This document shows, one piece after another, positions 19,067-29,707 of a stretch of 45,849 nucleotides of DNA. Below the pieces are notes generated by a model, which was given only the letters and a program-made list of their open reading frames with translations, did no database searches and had not been told where the DNA came from. Each line of letters starts with the position of its first letter. Position 1 is the first letter of the stretch. This DNA is from an uncultured Oscillospiraceae bacterium (GTDB taxonomy: Bacteria > Bacillota > Clostridia > Oscillospirales > Acutalibacteraceae): contig CASFLA010000078.1 in the NCBI GenBank assembly GCA_949295415.1, positions 1 to 45,849 of the forward strand, in the 5' to 3' direction. Position numbers and translations under genes: made by a program.

Positions 19067-19909
19067 TCAATATTTCTTGCTTTGCAAGGCAGTTTCGGTT
19101 TCTTTAATGGCTTTAACCGCCGCCTTGTTGCTGTTCATAACTATATAAGTATATAATGCGTCAAAAATAGCGAGCTGAGCGATTCTTGAACTCATAGCAA
19201 GTATAGAATATTTTGTTTCATCAGAACGGGTGTTTAAAACAATATCACTGACACTATGAATGGGGGAGTTCCCAAAATTTGTAAGGCAAATAGTTAAAGC
19301 ACCTGCGTCCTTAGCGGTTCTTAATGCTTCAACAACATCTATAGAAGCGCCGGAGTGGGAAATACCGATTGCAACATCGCCTTTATGCAGATGTGAGGCG
19401 GCAATAGCCTGCATATGATTATCGCAATAGGCAACCGCATCGAGTCCCGCCCTTAAAAATTTATGCTGAGCGTCAACTGCAACCGAGGCCGAGTTACCAA
19501 GACCGAATATAACTATTCTCGAAGCGTTCCTTAAAGCATTAGCGGCATTCTCAAATTCAGCAGGGTCTAACACAGATTTGGTGTTTTCCAAAGCTATATG
19601 AATATCGCTTATTCTCTTTTTAAAAATCTCATAGCAGGTATCGTTCTGCTCAATACCCATAACACCGCCTGCGGCAGTGTTGGCAGACTCCTGCGCAATC
19701 TTAAGCTTTAACTCCTGATAACCTGAAAGGCCGAGCCTTCTCGAAAAGCGGACAATGGTTGCTTCGCCGCAGCCGCAGTTATCGGCCAACTGGCTAATTG
19801 ACATATTCATCATATCGGAAAAATTTCTCGTCAACCAATCGGCAATAAGCTTTTCACTATGGCCCATTTGCGAGTATTTTTCCTTAATTGAAAGTAAAAG
19901 CGACTCCAT
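19067..19909 (-). CDS. MurR/RpiR family transcriptional regulator
   Basis: The 280-residue protein has an N-terminal helix-turn-helix domain (SQLADNCGCGEATIVRFSRRLG, about 38-60) and a C-terminal SIS domain (about 120-260, with IFGLGNSASVA and GISHSGASIDV) that binds a phosphorylated sugar. I start at ATG 19909, with GAGGTG just ahead. It diverges from the ten-gene catabolic cluster, and two TGAAA-N5-TTTCA palindromes lie between them, so it is the probable regulator of that operon and of itself. The effector is likely a phosphosugar made by one of the two kinases. Confidence 0.9.
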   Translation of the reverse strand: MESLLLSIKEKYSQMGHSEKLIADWLTRNFSDMMNMSISQLADNCGCGEATIVRFSRRLGLSGYQELKLKIAQESANTAAGGVMGIEQNDTCYEIFKKRISDIHIALENTKSVLDPAEFENAANALRNASRIVIFGLGNSASVAVDAQHKFLRAGLDAVAYCDNHMQAIAASHLHKGDVAIGISHSGASIDVVEALRTAKDAGALTICLTNFGNSPIHSVSDIVLNTRSDETKYSILAMSSRIAQLAIFDALYTYIVMNSNKAAVKAIKETETALQSKKY

Positions 19910-19922
19910 ATTGCACCTCAAA

Positions 19923-20085: not shown

Positions 20086-21516
20086 ATGGTTTGTAATGAG
20101 TTTTTGACAGACATTATTCTTACCGAATTAGAAGATGCTGTCGGCAGAGAAAACTGTTCAACAAGAGAAATTGATAAGATTACTCACGGTGTTGACTATT
20201 TCTGGCTTTCAAGAATGTGGGCTGACCGCGGTAAGCGTATGCCTGAGGCAGACTTTATTGTTTCGCCTAAGAATGCAGAGGAGACCTCTAAGGTTCTCAA
20301 AATTGCTAACTACTATAAGATTCCTGTTACCACCTGGGGTGGCGGCGGCGGAACACAGGGCGGTGCTATCCCTGTAGCTGGCGGTATTCTTCTTGATACC
20401 AAGAGAATGAACCAGATTTATGATGTTAATACCGAGTCTCTTTACATAGAGTGCGGATGCGGTGCTATTTATAAGCATATTGAGTGGGCAGCAAACGAGG
20501 TAGGCTATGCAACCATGCATTACCCTTCTTCTCTTACTTGCTCAACCGTTGGCGGCTTCTTGGCTCACCGCGGTATCGGCGTTGTTTCAACAAAATACGG
20601 TAAAATTGATGATATGGTTCTTAAAATGGAAGTTGTTCTTCCTAACGGTGATATCATTGAGACCTCTCCTGCACCTAAGCATGCAGCAGGTCCTGACCTT
20701 AACCAGATCTTCATCGGTTCTGAGGGAACCTTAGGTGTTATCACCAAGGCTCAGATCCGTATCTTCGCTCAACCTGAGGAGCGTCGCTTCCGTGCTTTCT
20801 TGTTCCAGGATATGCACGGTGCATTTGAAGCTTCTCGTGAACTTCTCCAGAAGTTCAAACCTTCTGTTATGCGTCTTTATGACGAGGCAGAAACCGCTTC
20901 TCTTATCAAGAAGATTGTTGGTGTTGAGAGAAAAGGCGCTTTTATGAACATTGCTTATGAAGGCTGCAAGGAAATGGTTGAAGTTGAAGAGAAGATTCTT
21001 CTTGATACATTTAAGAAATATGGCGCTGAGGACTTAGGCTCTGAATACGGCGAGAAGTGGTGGAAAGAGAAGATTACCTTCTTCTATCCCGGTCATATGA
21101 TGGATCTTCCGCAGATGTTCGGAACTATGGATACTATCGCTCCTTACGATAAGATTGAGAAGATTTATTGGGCAATGAAGAAAGCTATTGAGACTAACTT
21201 CCCGAACGTTAAGTTTATTGCTCACTTCTCTCACTGGTATGAGTGGGGCGCAATGGTTTACGACCGCTTCATTGTTGATAAGGAATTTGTTCCTGAAGAT
21301 CCGCATGAGGCATTGAGACTTCATCAGCAGATTTGGAATACCGGTGTTAGAACCGCTATTGCAAACGGCGGTGTTGTTAATGACCACCATGGTGTTGGTA
21401 TTAAGCTTGGCCGTCTTATGAAGGAACAGTATGGCCCTGCAATGCAGGTATTCGAAGGCATTAAGAAACAGCTCGACCCGAACGGCATTATGAACCCGTT
21501 CAAGCTCGGACTTTAA
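20086..21516 (+). CDS. FAD-linked oxidase/dehydrogenase (GlcD/AGPS-like)
   Basis: The 476-residue protein has an FAD-binding PCMH domain over about residues 55-235 (WGGGGGTQGGAIPV near 85, STVGGFLAHRGIGV, IGSEGTLGVIT near 210) and an FAD-oxidase C-terminal domain with VVNDHHGVG near 430 and DPNGIMNPFKLG at the end. Members oxidise 2-hydroxy acids or related substrates, such as glycolate and lactate, or build ether lipids in AGPS. Operon partners, an iron-sulfur protein and an ETF fusion, favour a dehydrogenase that passes electrons to ETF. The substrate is unknown. It heads the operon. Confidence 0.85.
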   Translation: MVCNEFLTDIILTELEDAVGRENCSTREIDKITHGVDYFWLSRMWADRGKRMPEADFIVSPKNAEETSKVLKIANYYKIPVTTWGGGGGTQGGAIPVAGGILLDTKRMNQIYDVNTESLYIECGCGAIYKHIEWAANEVGYATMHYPSSLTCSTVGGFLAHRGIGVVSTKYGKIDDMVLKMEVVLPNGDIIETSPAPKHAAGPDLNQIFIGSEGTLGVITKAQIRIFAQPEERRFRAFLFQDMHGAFEASRELLQKFKPSVMRLYDEAETASLIKKIVGVERKGAFMNIAYEGCKEMVEVEEKILLDTFKKYGAEDLGSEYGEKWWKEKITFFYPGHMMDLPQMFGTMDTIAPYDKIEKIYWAMKKAIETNFPNVKFIAHFSHWYEWGAMVYDRFIVDKEFVPEDPHEALRLHQQIWNTGVRTAIANGGVVNDHHGVGIKLGRLMKEQYGPAMQVFEGIKKQLDPNGIMNPFKLGL

Positions 21517-21539: not shown

Positions 21540-22634
21540 ATGTATATGTCTGAAAAAAGCAAACAGATTGTTGACGCATGCCGTTTCTGCTGGATGTGCC
21601 GTCATATCTGCCCTGTCGGAAATGCTACCGGTCAGGAGAGAAACACTTCCCGTGCTCGTGCACTTGCTCTTTCTTTAGTTAACCGCGATGGCGCTAAGAT
21701 GACTCCTGATGTTATCGATAACATCTATGAGTGTCAGATGTGCGGTGGCTGCACTAAAGATTGTGCAACCGGTTGGGACCCCATAGTATTTACTAAAGAT
21801 GTTCGTCTTAACCTCGCATTGAATGGCGAGACCCCTGATTACATAAACGCTATCATTGATAAGGTTCTTGAGACCGGTAACGCTTACGGCGTAACTGAAC
21901 TCGACAAGGATTTAGCTGCTGCTATTGCTGCTCACGCTGCTGTAACTGACACGGTTCTTTTCCTTGGCGCTGAGGCAAGATACAATGTTCCTGCTGCTGC
22001 AGTTAATGCTATCAAGGCTCTTGAAAAAGCAAATGTTAAGTTTACTGTTTTGGCAGATGAGCCTGCTTCTGGTGCTGCTCTTGATTGGCTTATCGGCGCT
22101 GCTGATGAGACCAAGAAGCAGATGGCTGATTGCGCTGCTGCTCTTAACGGTTTTGCAACTGTTATTGCTTTTGATCCTCAGGATGCAAAGGCTTTTGTTC
22201 GTGAGTATAAAGAGTATGGCGTTGAGCTTAACGGCGTTGTAACCTATACTGCCTTTGTTGCTGCTCTTATTAAAGACGGTAAGCTTGCAGTTAAGAACAC
22301 CGGCGCTAAGGTTGTTTATCAGGATCCCTATCAGCTTGCTCGTGACCTTGAGGAAACTGATGATGCAAGAGCAATTATTTCTGCTTGTGCAGAACTTAAT
22401 GAAATGCTTTTAAACAAAAAAGATACAATGTGGGCAGGCGGCTCGATTATGGCTATCTATAATCCGCTCGTAACCGACCTTGTTGCTAAGGAGCGTTGGA
22501 CCAACGCTATCAATGTTGGCGCTGATACCATCGTTACCGCTTCTGTTTCTGAGTATGCTTCATTAAAGAAGAATGCTCCCGAAGGCAAGAAGGTTATTGC
22601 TATTGAAGAGCTTATCCTTGCTGCCGCAAAATAA
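21540..22634 (+). CDS. Double [4Fe-4S] ferredoxin-type subunit (GlcF-like, cysteine-poor C-terminus)
   Basis: The 364-residue protein has two cluster motifs near the N-terminus, CRFCWMCRHICP (C14, C17, C20, C24) and CQMCGGCTKDC (C65, C68, C71, C75). It is the electron-transfer partner of the FAD oxidase encoded 23 bases upstream, as GlcF is for GlcD. The C-terminal part looks like the CCG domain of GlcF and HdrB, but the usual HDPCHLGR segment reads QDPYQLAR with Y264, and the CCG and CPxC cysteines are missing. The fold thus seems kept without the catalytic or cluster cysteines. RBS GGGAGG precedes the ATG. Confidence 0.85.
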   Translation: MYMSEKSKQIVDACRFCWMCRHICPVGNATGQERNTSRARALALSLVNRDGAKMTPDVIDNIYECQMCGGCTKDCATGWDPIVFTKDVRLNLALNGETPDYINAIIDKVLETGNAYGVTELDKDLAAAIAAHAAVTDTVLFLGAEARYNVPAAAVNAIKALEKANVKFTVLADEPASGAALDWLIGAADETKKQMADCAAALNGFATVIAFDPQDAKAFVREYKEYGVELNGVVTYTAFVAALIKDGKLAVKNTGAKVVYQDPYQLARDLEETDDARAIISACAELNEMLLNKKDTMWAGGSIMAIYNPLVTDLVAKERWTNAINVGADTIVTASVSEYASLKKNAPEGKKVIAIEELILAAAK

Positions 22635-22647
22635 GAAGTTTTGAAAA

Positions 22648-23487
22648 ATGTTTGTTAATTTAAAGAAAATTTTAAACATGGCAGAGGAAGGCAATTATGC
22701 CATTCCTGCATTTAACGTTTATAATATGGAAACCTGTATGGGCGTTATTGCCGCTGCAGAGGAGCTTAAAGCACCTGTTATTTTACAGGTATATCCGCGC
22801 CTTTTCAAAGAAGAAGCCGGATATTATCTCTCTCCGGTAATTATTGCCGCAGCCAAAAAGGCTTCGGTGCCCGTATGCTTCCATCTTGACCATGGCCCCT
22901 CTGAACTTGAGGTAACAAGAGCCCTCCGTTACGGAGCAACAGGCATTATGCTTGATGGTTCTGCTTTACCTTTTAAAGAAAACATTGCCGCAACTCGTAG
23001 AGTTGTTGAAACCTGTGATTATCTCGGTGTTGGCGTTGAGGGTGAGCTTGGTCATGTTGGCACAGTTAACGATGATTCTATGGATGAATTCACCGTTCCG
23101 GAAGATGCCAAAGAATTTGTTGAAAAAACCGGCGTAACAGCTCTTGCTGTTTTGGTCGGAACGGCTCATGGCCGCTACAAAAAGCCGCCCAAGCTGGATA
23201 TTGAGAGAATTAAGGATATCAGAAAGGCAACTAACAATACTGCACTTGTTCTTCATGGCGGTTCGGGTGTTCCCGATGCCGAAACCAAGGCAGCAGTTGC
23301 CGCAGGTATCCGTAAAGTAAACATTGCAACAGATGTTTGCTATGCATATCTTGATTGCATCGCTGAGGATATCGTAAAGCCTGACCGCGCTATTGCAGTT
23401 GATAACTTTATGAAGAGGCCTATCGAGGCAGTTAAAGAGTTTGCATTAACTAAAATCGAGCTTGTCGGAGCTAACGGCAAGGCGTAA
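22648..23487 (+). CDS. Class II aldolase (FbaA/IolJ family)
   Basis: Zinc-dependent aldolases of this family split a ketose phosphate into dihydroxyacetone phosphate and an aldehyde. The 279-residue product shows the zinc and catalytic residues: HLDHGP near residue 78, VEGELGHVG near 131, GTAHGRY near 172, LHGGSGVP near 203 and NIATD near 225. With IolB and a PfkB kinase in the same operon, an IolJ-type role (cleaving 6-phospho-5-dehydro-2-deoxygluconate) is plausible. Tagatose- or fructose-bisphosphate activity is the alternative. It begins 13 bases after the iron-sulfur gene. Confidence 0.88.
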   Translation: MFVNLKKILNMAEEGNYAIPAFNVYNMETCMGVIAAAEELKAPVILQVYPRLFKEEAGYYLSPVIIAAAKKASVPVCFHLDHGPSELEVTRALRYGATGIMLDGSALPFKENIAATRRVVETCDYLGVGVEGELGHVGTVNDDSMDEFTVPEDAKEFVEKTGVTALAVLVGTAHGRYKKPPKLDIERIKDIRKATNNTALVLHGGSGVPDAETKAAVAAGIRKVNIATDVCYAYLDCIAEDIVKPDRAIAVDNFMKRPIEAVKEFALTKIELVGANGKA

Positions 23488-23577: not shown

Positions 23578-24489
23578 ATGAGTAAGGTCGTTGGAATTGG
23601 CGCTTGCGTAATGGATACTCTTATTACCATTCCGCAGTTCCCGAAAGAAGATACTAAGCTGCGCGCTGTCTCAACAAAGCTTGTTGGCGGCGGTCCTACC
23701 GCGTCGGGCATCGTTGCAGTATCAAAATTAGGAGTTTCTTCTGAATTTATCGGTGTTTTATCCGATGATTCAACCGGAAACTTCTTAAAAACAGATTTCG
23801 AAAAATATCGTGTAAAAACCGATAATATAGATTTACTGAAAGGCTACAGAGCATTCCAGTCATGCATCTGGCTTAATGCTGAAAAGGCAACAAGAACCTG
23901 CGTTTTTGATAAAGGTGATTTGCCTGCGCTTAAGCTTGATGATAAAAAGATTGAGGCTATCAAATCGGCCGAGGTTTTAATGGTTGACGGTAATGAAATG
24001 GATGCTGCAGTAGAAGCTGCTAAAATCGCCCGTGAAAACGGTGTTAAGGTGCTTTATGACTGCGGAGGCCTTTATCCTAATGTTGATAAGCTTCTGGCTT
24101 TAACCGATATTATGATTCCTTCCGAGGAGTTTTCTATTGGTCATACCGGTGAAAGTAACGCCGCAGATGCTGCTAAGAAGCTTTATGAAATGTATTCACC
24201 GGAATATGTTGTTGTTACCCGCGGAAGCAAGGGCGGCTTAATTTATGACGGCGAAAAAATTACAGAATATCCTTGCTATCCCGTTGAGGTTAAGGACTCT
24301 AATGGTGCAGGCGATATTTTCCATGGAGCATTTGCTTCGGCGGTTGTCCGCGGATTTTCTCCCTTGCAGTGCTGCCATTTCAGTAGCGCTGTTTCTGCTA
24401 TTAAGTGCACTGGAGTCGGTGCTCGTGAGAGCGTCCCCGATTTTGATACAACCATTAAATTTTTAAGAAGGAACGGTTATGAATTATAA
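23578..24489 (+). CDS. PfkB family carbohydrate kinase (possible IolC analogue)
   Basis: This 303-residue kinase phosphorylates a sugar or sugar acid with ATP. It has the ribokinase opening VVGIGACVMDTL, a GGGPTASG substrate segment near 38, VVTRGSKGG near 212 and the catalytic NGAGDIFHGA near 243 with its base D246. AAAGGA lies ahead of the ATG. Its end overlaps the IolB-type gene by 11 bases, so the two are coupled. Next to IolB and a class II aldolase, phosphorylation of 5-dehydro-2-deoxygluconate is a reasonable guess, not proven. Confidence 0.87.
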   Translation: MSKVVGIGACVMDTLITIPQFPKEDTKLRAVSTKLVGGGPTASGIVAVSKLGVSSEFIGVLSDDSTGNFLKTDFEKYRVKTDNIDLLKGYRAFQSCIWLNAEKATRTCVFDKGDLPALKLDDKKIEAIKSAEVLMVDGNEMDAAVEAAKIARENGVKVLYDCGGLYPNVDKLLALTDIMIPSEEFSIGHTGESNAADAAKKLYEMYSPEYVVVTRGSKGGLIYDGEKITEYPCYPVEVKDSNGAGDIFHGAFASAVVRGFSPLQCCHFSSAVSAIKCTGVGARESVPDFDTTIKFLRRNGYEL

Positions 24490-25273
24490 AAAATCTTATA
24501 TACCCGCAAAGGGTTACACTCCTATTTGCAAAATAGGTGAGTGCTCATTAAAGAAGTTAGAGTTCGGCATTATCGAGCTTGATGCAGGCGAGAGCCTCGG
24601 CTTCAATACCTATGATAAAGAAACCGCATTTATTATGCTTGAGGGTCATTGCAATGTTGCTTTTGAAGGAACCAAATGGGAAAATGTTGGCAACAGAATG
24701 ACTGTTTTTGAAAATAAAAAAGCTGAAAGCTTCTATATGCCTAAGGAGCAGGAGCTTACTATTGAAGCTATTGACCATATTAAGATTGCAGTTTGTGCAA
24801 CTCCCGTTGCAGAAAAAACCGAGCCTCAGCTTCTTAAAGCTGACCGTGTTCCCCTTAAGCTTCTCGGCAAGGTCCCTTATGAAAGAGAAACCAGCTTTAT
24901 TATTGATGGAACAACCAATGCTAAGGTTTTAACCATTGGCGAATGCTATGTTACTGAGGGTAACTGGGCAGGCTTCCCGCCCCATAAGCATGACGAGGAC
25001 CATATGCCCACAGAGTGCATCGCTGAGGAAATTTATTATTTCCTTTTCGACCCCAAACAGGGCTTTGCTGTTCAGTGCCTCTATACTGCTGACGGCGAGA
25101 TTGATGAAGCATACCGCGTTAAAAACGATGAGTTGGTTGAGTTCCCCGTAGGTTATCATACCACTGTTTCAACTCCCGGTTACCAGACCTATTTCCTGTG
25201 GCTTATGGCCGGTGATTATCAGGGCTTCAACAGAAGTAATGACCCTGAGCATGATTGGATTGCTAATAAGTAA
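24479..25273 (+). CDS. iolB: 5-deoxy-glucuronate isomerase family protein (IolB-like)
   Basis: IolB is a metal-dependent cupin that turns 5-deoxy-glucuronate into 5-dehydro-2-deoxygluconate in inositol breakdown. The 264-residue product aligns with IolB over its length: GNWAGFPPHKHDED near residue 160 (metal-binding His, His), EEIYYFLFDPKQGFAVQ near 184, PVGYHTTVSTPGY near 222 and a terminal NDPEHDWI. The start lies within the end of the kinase gene. No inositol dehydrogenase, IolE or IolD is nearby, so the real substrate may be another 5-deoxy or keto uronate. Confidence 0.88.
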   Translation: MNYKKSYIPAKGYTPICKIGECSLKKLEFGIIELDAGESLGFNTYDKETAFIMLEGHCNVAFEGTKWENVGNRMTVFENKKAESFYMPKEQELTIEAIDHIKIAVCATPVAEKTEPQLLKADRVPLKLLGKVPYERETSFIIDGTTNAKVLTIGECYVTEGNWAGFPPHKHDEDHMPTECIAEEIYYFLFDPKQGFAVQCLYTADGEIDEAYRVKNDELVEFPVGYHTTVSTPGYQTYFLWLMAGDYQGFNRSNDPEHDWIANK

Positions 25274-25338: not shown

Positions 25339-26196
25339 ATGGTAGTTTTAAAGAATGAAAACGCAGTTTTGAAAATAAATGAACGCGGCGCAGAGATGAA
25401 GAGCTTTACAGTTAATAATGTAGAATATCTTTGGGTGGGCGACCCTAATTTTTGGGCGTCCAGCGCTCCGCATCTTTTCCCGATAGCAGGCGGATTAAAG
25501 GATGATAAATATATCCTTAACGGAAAGGAATATATCCTTTCCAAGCACGGCTTTGCAAAGAATATGGATTTTGCAGTTGAATCTGTAAGCGATAATAAAG
25601 CAACTTTTTTGCTTACTGCAACCGATGAAACCAAGGTTTCATTCCCTTATGATTTTGAATTCAGAGTAACCTATACCTTGTTTAATGATAAGGTTCAGGT
25701 TGACTATGATGTTAAGAACATAAATGATGATAAAATGTTCTTTTCTGTCGGCGCCCATGAGGGTTATGCTTGCCCTGAGGGAATTGAAGAATACGATATT
25801 ATTTTCAAAGAGAACGAAACGCTTAACAGTTATGTTGTTTATGGTAATCTTATCGGTAAGGATACAACTCCCGTTATTGAAAATACCAAGATTTTACCGC
25901 TTGAATATAAATACTTTGCAGTTGATGCACTTGTATTTAAAGATGTTAAGTCAGAGGAGTGCAGCCTTGTTAACAGAAAAACCGGCAGAGGAATCAAATT
26001 AGAGTATCCTAATTTCCCGTTTATGCTGCTTTGGACTAAACCCAACGCACCTTTTATCTGCATCGAGCCTTGGTTTGGCATCCCCGGAAGCCTTGATGAT
26101 GACTGCATTATTGAGAATAAAGAAGGTATTCAGTGCATAAATGCAGGCGAAACCTTCTCCTGCACAAGAGTAATTACTGCTTTGGAGGGTAAATAA
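25339..26196 (+). CDS. Aldose 1-epimerase family protein (LacX-like)
   Basis: The 285-residue product belongs to the galactose mutarotase-like fold, which interconverts anomers of free or phosphorylated aldoses. Visible family segments are NERGAEMKSF, SAPHLFPIAG near 53, HGFAKNMDF near 74, SVGAHEGYACP near 137 and CIEPWFGIPG near 235, with the likely catalytic His and Glu. AAGGAGG precedes the ATG. The next gene begins one base after its stop, so it is an integral part of the operon. Confidence 0.87.
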   Translation: MVVLKNENAVLKINERGAEMKSFTVNNVEYLWVGDPNFWASSAPHLFPIAGGLKDDKYILNGKEYILSKHGFAKNMDFAVESVSDNKATFLLTATDETKVSFPYDFEFRVTYTLFNDKVQVDYDVKNINDDKMFFSVGAHEGYACPEGIEEYDIIFKENETLNSYVVYGNLIGKDTTPVIENTKILPLEYKYFAVDALVFKDVKSEECSLVNRKTGRGIKLEYPNFPFMLLWTKPNAPFICIEPWFGIPGSLDDDCIIENKEGIQCINAGETFSCTRVITALEGK

Positions 26197-26197
26197 T

Positions 26198-26854
26198 ATG
26201 AGCTACGAGTTAATAGTAAAAAACAATCCTAATCTTAAAATTTATAAGGTTACCGATAAGGAGTTTATTCCTTACGGTAAAGTTCTCAATAATCTTTCAA
26301 TCGACGAGATTATTGAGGTTGCTAATAAAATCCCTATGCCTGCAGAGGGTTCTATGTATGTTCCCGAGCTCGAGGAGTTTATGAAGACTAAAGCCGCTAA
26401 GGAAATGCAAGAGGATTGCTATGGCGAGATGCCGACTCAGGTTGGTTATTGCTATGGTTCAAGCAACAAGCTTAACGCGGTTGAATGGCATAAGGATTCT
26501 GAAATCAATATTGCAACAACTCCGCTTGTGCTGATTTTGGGCAAGGTTCAGGATATTGTTGACAATAAGGTTGATTCATCTACCTTTAAAATTTTCTATC
26601 TTGAAAAGGGCGATGCAGTCGAAGTTTATGCAACAACCTTGCATTTTTGTCCTTGTCAGGTATTAAAGAGTGGTTTTGGCTGTGTTGTTGGTCTTCCTAA
26701 GGGCACTAACATTCCGCTCCAAAACGAGCATGAAGATAAGGTTCTTTTCCGCAAAAACAAGTGGATTTTAGCCCATGTTGAGAATGAGGGACTTATTGGT
26801 CGCGGCGTTCTCCCCGGTGTTACAGGCGAAAACTACGAAATTAGAGGAGAATAA
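26198..26854 (+). CDS. DUF4867 family protein (cupin-like)
   Basis: The 218-residue product matches DUF4867, with PAEGSMYVPELEEF near 48, MPTQVGYCYGSSNKLNAVEWH near 77 and EVYATTLHFCPCQV near 149. The family has no assigned activity. Conserved His and Glu residues (EWHKDSEIN) suggest a metal-binding cupin-type isomerase or lyase. It sits tightly between the epimerase and the FGGY kinase, so it probably acts on the sugar made or used by them. One base separates it from the next start. Confidence 0.8.
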   Translation: MSYELIVKNNPNLKIYKVTDKEFIPYGKVLNNLSIDEIIEVANKIPMPAEGSMYVPELEEFMKTKAAKEMQEDCYGEMPTQVGYCYGSSNKLNAVEWHKDSEINIATTPLVLILGKVQDIVDNKVDSSTFKIFYLEKGDAVEVYATTLHFCPCQVLKSGFGCVVGLPKGTNIPLQNEHEDKVLFRKNKWILAHVENEGLIGRGVLPGVTGENYEIRGE

Positions 26855-26855
26855 A

Positions 26856-28328
26856 ATGAAATATCTTCTCGGAATAGATTTTGGCGGCGGTGCTTCTAAG
26901 GCAACTATTATTGATACCTTGGGTAATATCGTTGCTGAGCATTCGGTTGAGTATCCGACCCTTCATCCCGATAAAGGCTACTGCGAGCAAAAACCTGAGG
27001 ATTGGTATAAGGCTCTTTGCGAGGATACAACCGAGTTGTTTAAGAAAAGTGGTATCGATGCGGCTGATATTTTAGCAGTTTCTATTGATTCGGCAACTCA
27101 TACCGCTGTTTTATGTGATAAAGACGCTAATCCCTTACGCCCTGCAATTCATTGGACCGATTCGCGCAGTAAGCCTCAGTCCGATGCTTTAAAGGCTATA
27201 GCAATGGATATGATTGTTAAAAAATGCTTCTCAAAGCCCGATACTATCTGGACTTTGCCGCAGATTATCTGGGTTAAGGAAAATGAGCCCGAGGTCTTCG
27301 CTAAAATGGGTAAGATTTTCTTTGAGAAGGATTATATCCGTTATCTTTTAACCGATGTTTACTGCACTGATTATATTGAGGCGCAGGGAAGTATGCTTTT
27401 TGATAACAATACTATGCAGTGGGATGATGAACTTTGTGCATTAGCGGGTATTGATAAAGCTATTTTACCTCCCATTGTTAAGCCTACTGATATTATCGGT
27501 TCTGTTACTGAAAAAGCAGCAGCCCAAACAGGTTTAGCGGCAGGAACTCCCGTTATTTGCGGAACAACCGATACTGTTATGGAGGTTTTTGCTTCCGGTG
27601 CAGTCCAAAAGGGTCAGATGACCGTAAAATTAGCAACTGCAGGCAGAATCTGTGTTATTACAGACCGCTCATATCCTAATGAGCATTTAATTAACTATGC
27701 CCATATTGTTGACGGTATGTGGTATCCCGGAACTGCAACTAAAGCGGCGGCATCGAGCTATCGTTGGTATAGAGATACCTTTGATGGCGACTATAAGCAG
27801 CTTGACGCTGCGGCGGCAGAAATTCCCCTTGGCTCAAACGGTGTTATGTTCCACCCATATATTAACGGAGAGCTTACTCCGTATGCAGACCCGACTCTTT
27901 GCGGTAGCTTCATCGGTCTCAGAGCTGAGCATACAAAAGCTGAGTTTACAAGAGCCGTTTTAGAGGGTGTTTCATTCTCGCTTTTGCATAGTATGGTTTC
28001 TTTAAACCAAATTGGTATCGAGCATGATGATTATGCTACACTTATTGGTGGCGGTGCTAAGGGTAAGCTTTGGGCACAGATTACTGCTGATATGTTGGGT
28101 ATTACTCTTAAAACTACCGAAAGCAGTGACTCCTCGTTTGGCTCTGCTATGCTTGCAGGCATTGCAGTTGGAGTGTTCTCTGATGCGGTTGATGCAGTTA
28201 AAAAATGCGTTAAGGTTAGGGATACTATTATTCCCAACCTTGAAAACACCGCAAAATACAAGGAACTCTTTAAGAAATATAAGGCGGTCCATGATGCTTT
28301 GGCGCCTATATATCATGGAGAATTTTAA
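26856..28328 (+). CDS. FGGY family carbohydrate kinase (xylulokinase-like)
   Basis: The 490-residue kinase phosphorylates a ketose or polyol with ATP. It has the two actin-like domains, with VSIDSATHTAVLCD, PAIHWTDSRS near 98, and GGGAKGKLWAQITADML near 393. The phosphate-binding loop reads DFGGGASK in place of the usual DxGTxSxK. I start at ATG 26856, behind GGAG and one base after the DUF4867 stop; the longer frame from 26775 lies within that gene. The substrate is unknown. Its last base is the first base of the ETF gene start, so the two are coupled. Confidence 0.88.
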   Translation: MKYLLGIDFGGGASKATIIDTLGNIVAEHSVEYPTLHPDKGYCEQKPEDWYKALCEDTTELFKKSGIDAADILAVSIDSATHTAVLCDKDANPLRPAIHWTDSRSKPQSDALKAIAMDMIVKKCFSKPDTIWTLPQIIWVKENEPEVFAKMGKIFFEKDYIRYLLTDVYCTDYIEAQGSMLFDNNTMQWDDELCALAGIDKAILPPIVKPTDIIGSVTEKAAAQTGLAAGTPVICGTTDTVMEVFASGAVQKGQMTVKLATAGRICVITDRSYPNEHLINYAHIVDGMWYPGTATKAAASSYRWYRDTFDGDYKQLDAAAAEIPLGSNGVMFHPYINGELTPYADPTLCGSFIGLRAEHTKAEFTRAVLEGVSFSLLHSMVSLNQIGIEHDDYATLIGGGAKGKLWAQITADMLGITLKTTESSDSSFGSAMLAGIAVGVFSDAVDAVKKCVKVRDTIIPNLENTAKYKELFKKYKAVHDALAPIYHGEF

Positions 28329-29707
28329 TGAAGATTTTAGTTTGTGTTAAGCAGGTTACATCGGGCGAAATAAACCCGTTTGATGCTTGTGCCTTAGAAT
28401 GTGCGCTTCGCATTCCCGATGCAGAAATCACTGTTTTAAGTATGGGCAGACCTAATGTTGAAAATCTGCTTCGTTCACTGACAAGACTCGGCAATGTTAA
28501 CGGCATTTTGCTTTCTGATACCGCTTTTGCAGGTGCGGATACTTTGGCTACGGGTTATGCTTTAAGCCTCGCGGCTAAAAAGGTTGACCCCGACCTTATT
28601 ATTTGCGGCAGACAGACTGTTGACGGTGATACCGCGCAGACAGGCTCTGTTTTGGCAAAAATGATGGGATTCCCCGTTATTACCAATGTTATGAGCATTG
28701 ATAATTTAAGCGATAATGAAATTTCTTGCACAACAAGATTGGGTGAGGAAAAGACGATACTTCCCGCAGTTATTACTGTTGAAAGAATAAACGAGCTTCG
28801 TTTTCCGAGCATTCGCTCAAAAGCAAAGGATATAACTGTATGGAATGCCGATGATATCGGTGCAGACAAGAGTTGTTGCGGCATTCTTGGCTCTCCGACT
28901 AAGGTCGTTAAGAGCTTTGAGAATGAAAGCGGCAAGAGAAGATGCAAGTTTATTGAACCGTCTGAGCTTAAAAATGTTATTGCCGAGGGTCTTAAAAAAG
29001 ATAAGGCCGCCGAACACAGGATTATATCTGAGAAAAAGCTTAAAAATGTTTGGATAATCGGAGAGGAACCGCGCGAAATGGCAGAAACTGTATCAGATGA
29101 TATAACTGTTATTGAGCGCGCTGATGCAGATACTCTTATTGCTAAAATAAAAGAAGGCCAACCCGATTTTGTCCTTTGGCCCGGCGATATCTGGGCAAGA
29201 AGAACAGCCCCGATTGTTTCTGCGGCGTTAATGACCGGACTTTGTGCCGATTGCACCGCGCTTGAAACCGATGGGGAAGAGCTTTTTATGTATCGCCCTG
29301 CTTTTAGTGGAAATATTATTGCAAAAATCAGATGCGTTACAAAGCCTTGTATGGCAACCGTTAGAACAGCCGCGGCTGAAATGAGTGATTTAATGCTCGG
29401 TTTGGGCAAAGGTGTTAAGGATATTTATCCCGAAGCCTTAAAATTTGCGGATTATTTGGGCGCAGAACCTGTTGCATCAAGAGCTTTGGTGGATACAGGG
29501 TTAGCACCTTATTCCCATCAGGTCGGAATAACGGGTAAAATTGTTAGTCCCAAGGTTTATGTTGCGGCAGGAATTTCGGGCGCAGTGCATCATATTGTAG
29601 GAATGCAACAGTCGGGAACAATTATCGCCATAAACCCCGATAAATCGGCACCGATATTCGATTATTGTGACTATGGAATTGTTGCAAAATTAGAGGATTT
29701 ATTCTAA
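28328..29707 (+). CDS. Fused electron transfer flavoprotein, EtfB-EtfA
   Basis: ETF takes electrons from flavin dehydrogenases, or works with them in electron bifurcation. This 459-residue product joins both subunits. An EtfB part (MKILVCVKQV, GADTLATGYAL, CGRQTVDGDTAQ, about residues 1-185) is followed by an EtfA part (LTGLCADCTAL near 305, RPAFSGNIIAKI, VGITGKIVSPKVYVAAGISG near 402, and APIFDYCDYGIV). The EtfA FAD site appears intact. Two separate subunits total about 590 residues, so this is a shortened fusion. Operon linkage to the FAD and iron-sulfur proteins indicates one redox module. Confidence 0.88.
   Translation: MKILVCVKQVTSGEINPFDACALECALRIPDAEITVLSMGRPNVENLLRSLTRLGNVNGILLSDTAFAGADTLATGYALSLAAKKVDPDLIICGRQTVDGDTAQTGSVLAKMMGFPVITNVMSIDNLSDNEISCTTRLGEEKTILPAVITVERINELRFPSIRSKAKDITVWNADDIGADKSCCGILGSPTKVVKSFENESGKRRCKFIEPSELKNVIAEGLKKDKAAEHRIISEKKLKNVWIIGEEPREMAETVSDDITVIERADADTLIAKIKEGQPDFVLWPGDIWARRTAPIVSAALMTGLCADCTALETDGEELFMYRPAFSGNIIAKIRCVTKPCMATVRTAAAEMSDLMLGLGKGVKDIYPEALKFADYLGAEPVASRALVDTGLAPYSHQVGITGKIVSPKVYVAAGISGAVHHIVGMQQSGTIIAINPDKSAPIFDYCDYGIVAKLEDLF

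Follow-up and report, generated by a model that had tools for sequence, protein, structure and literature searches.

The window, i.e. the whole stretch of 45,849 nucleotides analysed here, encodes an iron-sulfur protein whose two N-terminal cubane motifs, both of the form CxxCxxCxxxC, are complete and whose C-terminal half lacks the cysteines that hold clusters in CCG domains. The locus thus raises the question whether this half is a CCG domain at all, whether the loss is a fixed trait of related operons, and what role such a protein can have between its neighbours, a GlcD-like flavoprotein and a fused electron transfer flavoprotein (ETF). The features are listed in Table 1.

Table 1. Operon genes in the window and sites within the iron-sulfur protein
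Feature	Position	Strand	Remark
RpiR-family regulator, divergent from operon	19067..19921	-	
GlcD-like FAD dehydrogenase, presumed electron donor	20086..21516	+	
Iron-sulfur subunit, two cubane motifs and cysteine-ligand-free CCG half	21540..22634	+	364 aa and stop
First [4Fe-4S] motif CRFCWMCRHIC, residues 14-24	21579..21611	+	four Cys kept in 103/103 family sequences
Second [4Fe-4S] motif CQMCGGCTKDC, residues 65-75	21732..21764	+	four Cys kept in 103/103
HdrB/EtfD-type double CCG fold without ligands, residues 136-364	21945..22631	+	structure and profile matches
Former first-repeat ligand site GC, now GA, residues 143-144	21966..21971	+	
Former first CCG, now PASG, residues 175-178	22062..22073	+	
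Former first CPxC, now DPQD, residues 212-215	22173..22184	+	
Former HDPCHLGR, now QDPYQLAR, residues 261-268	22320..22343	+	
Former second CCG, now WAG, residues 298-300	22431..22439	+	
Former second CPxC, now SVSEY, residues 335-339	22542..22556	+	
Class II ketose-bisphosphate aldolase	22648..23487	+	
PfkB sugar kinase	23578..24489	+	
KduI/IolB-family isomerase	24479..25273	+	above NCBIfam IolB cut-off
Aldose 1-epimerase family protein	25339..26196	+	
DUF4867 protein (SftX family)	26198..26854	+	
FGGY sugar kinase	26856..28328	+	above NCBIfam xylulokinase cut-off; start set at internal ATG
Fused ETF, beta then alpha	28328..29707	+	sequence-closest to bifurcating ETFs

Ligand sites of the iron-sulfur protein

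An earlier note on this DNA had described both N-terminal [4Fe-4S] motifs as complete, the HDPCHLGR motif as altered and the CCG and CPxC cysteines as absent, and all of this is confirmed at the positions in Table 1. That reading covered the second CCG repeat; the first repeat is stripped as well. We mapped the ligand positions by alignment with cysteine-bearing relatives and with the mycobacterial protein EtfD, and found none of the ten CCG ligand cysteines across the two repeats. The five positions of the first repeat, which correspond to EtfD cluster D1, are now A144, A176, S177, D212 and D215, and those of the second repeat (D2) are Y264, W298, A299, S335 and E338. The protein has ten cysteines in total, namely the eight of the cubane motifs, C198 and C283. 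With just these two outside the cubane motifs, a replacement cluster within the protein is ruled out.

The name "GlcF-like" given in the earlier note holds only loosely. TfrB, GlcF, GlpC and LdhH share the domain order of the window protein, and the TfrB model spans residues 10-359, but the scores of 42.4 bits for TfrB (PRK06259, cut-off 385) and 17.5 bits for GlcF (PRK11274, cut-off 333) are far below the curated NCBIfam cut-offs, and the CCG ligands of these proteins are absent here.

Fold of the C-terminal half

The C-terminal half is a true CCG/HdrB fold. That it might be unrelated to CCG domains, the finding that would overturn the earlier note, is ruled out by profile, profile-profile and structure matches. 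Scored against a profile built from 15 relatives that have the cysteines, the C-terminal half alone reaches 66.4 bits and the best of 200 shuffled sequences 3.1, so the likeness is not due to chance. Comparison with the cysteine-bearing relatives by hhalign gave an E-value of 2.9e-38 across columns 3-362. In the PDB profile search EtfD (PDB: 9ojn) was found at E 1.2e-14, and at 7.4e-65 with a wider profile, which also showed sequence likeness to HdrB and HdrC in both halves. Designed PPR/solenoid proteins, one of them placed above EtfD in the first search, matched short repeated stretches only; they were taken as repeat-sum noise and are missing among the 60 matches listed for the wider profile.

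The AlphaFold (AF2) model, built on a 34-sequence alignment, has a mean pLDDT of 92.4 and a pTM of 0.92. EtfD is its top structural match (Z 26.6, 353 residues, 2.7 Å), and it also aligns with LutA (Z 23.9; PDB: 9a6l, itself a model from crosslinks and prediction) and with HdrB (Z 20-21), while racemases follow after the CCG-fold matches at Z 7. Another match is PDB 3kwl, a Helicobacter pylori protein of unknown function (Z 21.0 across 310 residues), which, judged from the model, may be another CCG-fold protein.

The Pfam CCG model (PF02754) has no match to the window protein at E-values up to 0.1 and none in its own genome at E-values up to 0.001. In a mixed alignment of 24 members, 18 are matched by PF02754 and the window protein is outside these 18.

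Comparison with known systems

Mycobacterial EtfD, which works with an ETF (PMC13083937), combines two cubanes with a double CCG fold as the window protein does. The available text on EtfD describes a heme b membrane domain, a linear [3Fe-4S] cluster D1 and a noncubane [4Fe-4S] cluster D2; the wire runs D1-D2-D3-D4, its clusters about 8, 8 and 9 Å apart (PMC13083937). In the EtfD-ETF model given there, the flavin is about 12.5 Å from D1 and 11.6 Å from D2, and in that part of the paper the authors are undecided between the two as electron entry point (PMC13083937). The window protein, by contrast, has neither ligand set and no membrane part; it starts at the cubane half and aligns to EtfD residues 286-746 only.

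The EtfD homologues FadF of Bacillus subtilis and DgcB of Pseudomonas aeruginosa are reported to lack the D1 cysteines, and their D2 is inferred to be still in use in the portion of the paper available to us (PMC13083937), whereas the window family is without D2 ligands too. HdrB and HdrC resemble the window protein in the fold of the C-terminal half, but the ligands for the two noncubane clusters, which form the catalytic site of HdrB according to the same text (PMC13083937), are absent here. EtfD and HdrB thus bear out the statement of the earlier note that such residues carry clusters elsewhere.

The lactate dehydrogenase complex Ldh-EtfAB of Acetobacterium (PDB: 7qh2) is similar to the window operon in pairing a GlcD-type dehydrogenase with an ETF, which is of the bifurcating type in Ldh-EtfAB and nearest to that type by sequence in the window. 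It differs, as far as the accessible text goes, in having no separate CCG-fold iron-sulfur subunit, an unfused ETF and a ferredoxin domain of its own in EtfA, the removal of which abolishes confurcation (PMC9232219). That the first cluster can be lost is already published for FadF and DgcB. In the literature searched we found no description of a CCG fold lacking both.

The ligand loss is fixed in the family

Matches to the window protein at E-values up to 1e-5 were found in 9 of 148 near relatives and in 27 of 391 genomes of the class (own genome included in both cases); two of these 27 matches are at just 27% identity. A scan of named genomes gave 255 relatives; the best 80 of them were examined, and many of their titles refer to ruminant or other gut samples. 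The family set used for counting comprises 103 sequences, 30 from the genome search and 73 from the best 80 of the 255 relatives, which are distinct but not independent. It omits repeat loci (L038-L057, L139, L168-L170), identical sequences and matches covering fewer than 300 profile positions (fragments such as L030-L032 and L035-L037, and the split L151). The counts therefore describe the relatives nearest the window plus the class sample.

All eight cubane cysteines are kept in every one of the 103 sequences. Of the ten CCG cysteines, none is present in 64 sequences, one in 38 and six in a single sequence, L138. The earlier note had asked whether the loss is fixed among homologues from the same operon type: with zero or one CCG cysteine in 102 of 103 sequences, it is a fixed family trait. 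In the alignment, 34 cysteine-bearing relatives each have between 7 and 10 of these cysteines. The 102 sequences that lack the D2 set all have D215 and E338; position 212 is D in 101 and E in one, position 299 is A in 101 and G in one, and position 177 is S or T.

None of the listed matches has a stop codon inside its open frame. In pairwise comparisons with three congeners, dN/dS is about 0.14-0.17 for the C-terminal half and 0.08-0.10 for the N-terminal half (a fourth pair, L058, is a near-duplicate of L004), and from these values the C-terminal half is under purifying selection.

Genomic context

The gene belongs to a conserved Clostridia operon with the order GlcD-FeS-aldolase-PfkB-IolB-FGGY-fused ETF, which is found in many gut and rumen assemblies. 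GlcD lies directly upstream of the iron-sulfur gene in all 18 family neighbourhoods and was found in 79 of 80 further loci, the exception beginning close to the edge of its contig. A fused ETF gene occurs in 16 of the 18 neighbourhoods and in 65 of the 80 loci, and its absences in both sets are at or near sequence ends: 13 of the 15 further loci lacking it have less than 4 kb of sequence downstream, and the other two, L087 and L126, end at or soon after FGGY. Some copies of the operon have a broken or short fused ETF (L111, L130, L137). An RpiR-type neighbour cluster occurs in 32 of the 80 loci, a recognised aldose epimerase in 15 and DUF4867 in 28. For SftX, the DUF4867-family protein of sulfoglycolysis, ketose mutarotation or ring isomerisation has been proposed, an activity that, in the part of the report available, its authors did not detect (PMC11968277).

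A protein of about 480 amino acids without a Pfam match (L074:1790-3232 and relatives) is encoded near the operon in 47 of the 80 loci. It is weakly similar to the sulfoquinovose isomerase SftI (98.8 bits, cut-off 700), and no SftI-like gene lies beside the operon in the window. In L087 (13630-20757) and L126 (14276-19034), ManA-like, SIS/GKRP-like, GlcNAc-2-epimerase and NagB-like genes are positioned between IolB and FGGY or beside FGGY, the ManA likeness coming from reading the sequence. These genes hint that some of the operons may act on an amino sugar or a rare sugar. A scan of nine operon proteins recognised nothing else of the inositol pathway besides IolB, except for a weakly IolC-like PfkB. 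In the literature searched, we found no description of a GlcD-FeS-ETF sugar-catabolic operon.

A halfway form and the probable order of loss

The sequence with six CCG cysteines is L138, which comes from genome G540 of another class. It shares 46% identity with the window protein and lies in the same gene order (GlcD-FeS-FBA-PfkB-IolB-FGGY), with a GlcD partner 73% identical to that of the window. It keeps HDPC, CCG and CPSC, i.e. all five D2 cysteines, and only the last of the D1 cysteines, which is the ligand state of FadF and DgcB. At the equivalents of positions 215, 338 and 212 it has C, C and G. In G540 no fused ETF follows FGGY and the genome has an unfused ETF pair only. A flavoprotein with PF12831 after FGGY in G540 was considered as an HdrA-like substitute for the ETF and rejected; it has just FAD-oxidoreductase domains and lies among sugar-type genes.

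Since L138 keeps the five cysteines of the second cluster without the first site, the clusters were probably lost stepwise, D1 first and then D2, with L138 as the single intermediate. Further D2-keeping intermediates were sought in 398 genomes of the phylum and 97 of another class, and there was no other family-level match; three new matches from the 97, at 30-33% identity, retain HDPC as well as the two CCG and the two CPxC motifs.

L033 of genome G521, more distant at 27% identity, is likewise without any of the ten CCG cysteines. Its gene is flanked by GlcD and UPF0261 genes and preceded by a regulator called RpiR-like from its likeness to that of the window. The order regulator-GlcD-FeS-UPF0261 (L052:220-5209) makes this a sister system in which the CCG half is cysteine-free too but the downstream gene differs. 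The genome shows unfused ETF pairs only. With G521 and G540 both confined to unfused pairs, loss of the first or of both sites is not tied to ETF fusion.

With the ligand columns left out of the tree, the 24 cysteine-free representatives cluster (SH-aLRT 90), joined by L138 (99), then by L033 (96) and then by the cysteine-bearing L171 (98). This branching order suggests two independent losses of D2, one in the family and one in G521. A tree constrained to one loss is, for the iron-sulfur protein, 1.25 log units better (p-AU 0.53), so that one shared loss is not rejected; the same test on GlcD gave p-AU 0.27, and the deciding branch has a support of just 82/66 in the careful tree.

The partner flavoproteins

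The best solved structure for the GlcD-like protein is alkyl-DHAP synthase (E 1.5e-40), not glycolate oxidase, followed by D-lactate dehydrogenase and then by LctD (PDB: 7qh2_C, E 8.4e-30). Alkyl-DHAP synthase has an HHH motif; the GlcD-like protein has VNDHHGVG, present in 72 of 72 aligned sequences. The beta part of the fused ETF scores 119.5 bits with the bifurcating 4kpu_B and 44.7 bits with the canonical 1efp_B, while fold comparison does not clearly separate the two types. With 459 residues the fused ETF is shorter than the summed separate subunits of solved relatives, and no Fer4-type or ferredoxin domain was found in it at Pfam E-values up to 0.1.

We also looked at the conserved cysteines of both partners for a compensating cluster motif. 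In GlcD these are C24 (71 of 72 sequences), C123 and C152 (72 of 72 each), and in the ETF C6 and C93 (61 of 62 each), C206, C306 and C309 (62 of 62 each), with C306-A-D-C309 invariant in the fused ETF family. None of them shows recognisable cubane spacing, and such a motif was rejected. Mirror-tree analysis with 52 sequences per gene gave partial correlations with the C-terminal half of 0.50 for ETF and 0.37 for GlcD, values exceeded by two of the four controls (PfkB 0.71, FGGY 0.71, FBA 0.24, IolB 0.19).

Proposed role and alternatives

We lean, at somewhat better than even confidence, towards a shortened electron wire, in which the two cubanes of the HdrC-like half would link the GlcD-type flavoprotein to an ETF of putative bifurcating type and the HdrB-like CCG half would be a scaffold. 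The GlcD-like flavoprotein would oxidise a hydroxy-acid or sugar-type intermediate of the operon pathway, and electrons would pass from its flavin to the two cubanes and from there directly to the flavin of the fused ETF. The latter would reduce NAD+, possibly together with ferredoxin; an RnfD/NqrB-family (Rnf/Nqr) protein is present in the genome. The CCG half would serve as a structural platform holding the partners and would no longer carry electrons, D1 having presumably been lost before D2 as in FadF and DgcB. A ferredoxin-type subunit between an ETF and its dehydrogenase has a parallel in FixX, which takes this place according to the available text of PMC9232219.

The earlier note had proposed that the stripped domain serves only as a docking surface for the fused ETF. 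Such docking is possible, but the mirror-tree values single out neither ETF nor GlcD over the control genes, and G521, whose relative is also cysteine-free, shows unfused ETF pairs only. A role for the fused ETF is not general, because G540 has only its unfused pair and no fused ETF after FGGY, and "only docking" is doubtful because three former ligand positions are acids fixed in all or nearly all relatives. The pose also matters, since electron tunnelling has a limit of about 14 Å. Were the ETF seated as on EtfD, its flavin would by our estimate lie some 20 Å or more from the first cubane, too long a jump with D1 and D2 gone, D2 of EtfD being 8 Å from the first cubane. The ETF must then dock elsewhere or reach the cubanes directly, or the wire is not used in this way.

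The fixed acids are the starting point of a different explanation, that the vacated CCG cavity was repurposed and D212, D215 and E338, together with E174, D262 and R268, make up a site for a metal, substrate or effector. The half would then be a binding domain with a new function and not a passive scaffold. The conservation of the three acids in the family and their absence from L138 fit this, as do E174, D262, R268, R319 and Y339, invariant in the C-terminal half in 81 aligned sequences. E174, D262, R268 and R319 are, however, invariant or nearly so also with the cysteine-bearing relatives included and thus inherited, and the acids could merely fill the hole. Together, the 11 former ligand positions have a mean entropy of 0.79 versus 1.08 for the rest of the C-terminal half, which is not a significant difference (p 0.10); five fixed sites give p 0.00065, but they were chosen after looking. 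We regard a repurposed cavity as unlikely, and as slightly less likely again its more specific form, a neofunctionalised HdrB fold whose emptied cavity would bind a metal, substrate or regulator through D212, D215 and E338 and so gate the transfer from GlcD to ETF.

The cubanes may instead work on the ferredoxin side of a confurcating complex. The GlcD and ETF flavins would touch directly as in Ldh-EtfAB, and the cubanes would replace the ferredoxin domain of EtfA and feed ferredoxin electrons to the ETF. The relationship of the GlcD-like protein to LctD and the closeness of the ETF beta part to bifurcating ETFs speak for this arrangement, and so does the fused ETF being without a Pfam ferredoxin domain when Ldh-EtfAB, in the text available, needs one to confurcate (PMC9232219). 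Against it, six of seven examined neighbourhoods of cysteine-bearing relatives outside this operon have an adjoining GlcD-like gene, which points to a relay from GlcD, and we give the confurcating relay a low probability. Far more improbable is that the C-terminal half is a decaying remnant or reflects an error of sequencing. The loss of all motifs in the window sequence could look like decay, but this is contradicted by fixation in 102 of 103 sequences, open frames, purifying selection and a complete, confidently predicted fold.

Implications

The family, with its sister at a halfway stage, suggests that in a conserved redox operon a fold of the HdrB type can persist after the loss of both clusters. 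CCG-fold proteins without the cysteines can escape the Pfam CCG model. A family free of these ligands makes it testable which clusters electron exchange with an ETF needs, and the finding draws attention to a sugar-catabolic operon of the GlcD-FeS-ETF kind that many Clostridia assemblies from gut and rumen carry.
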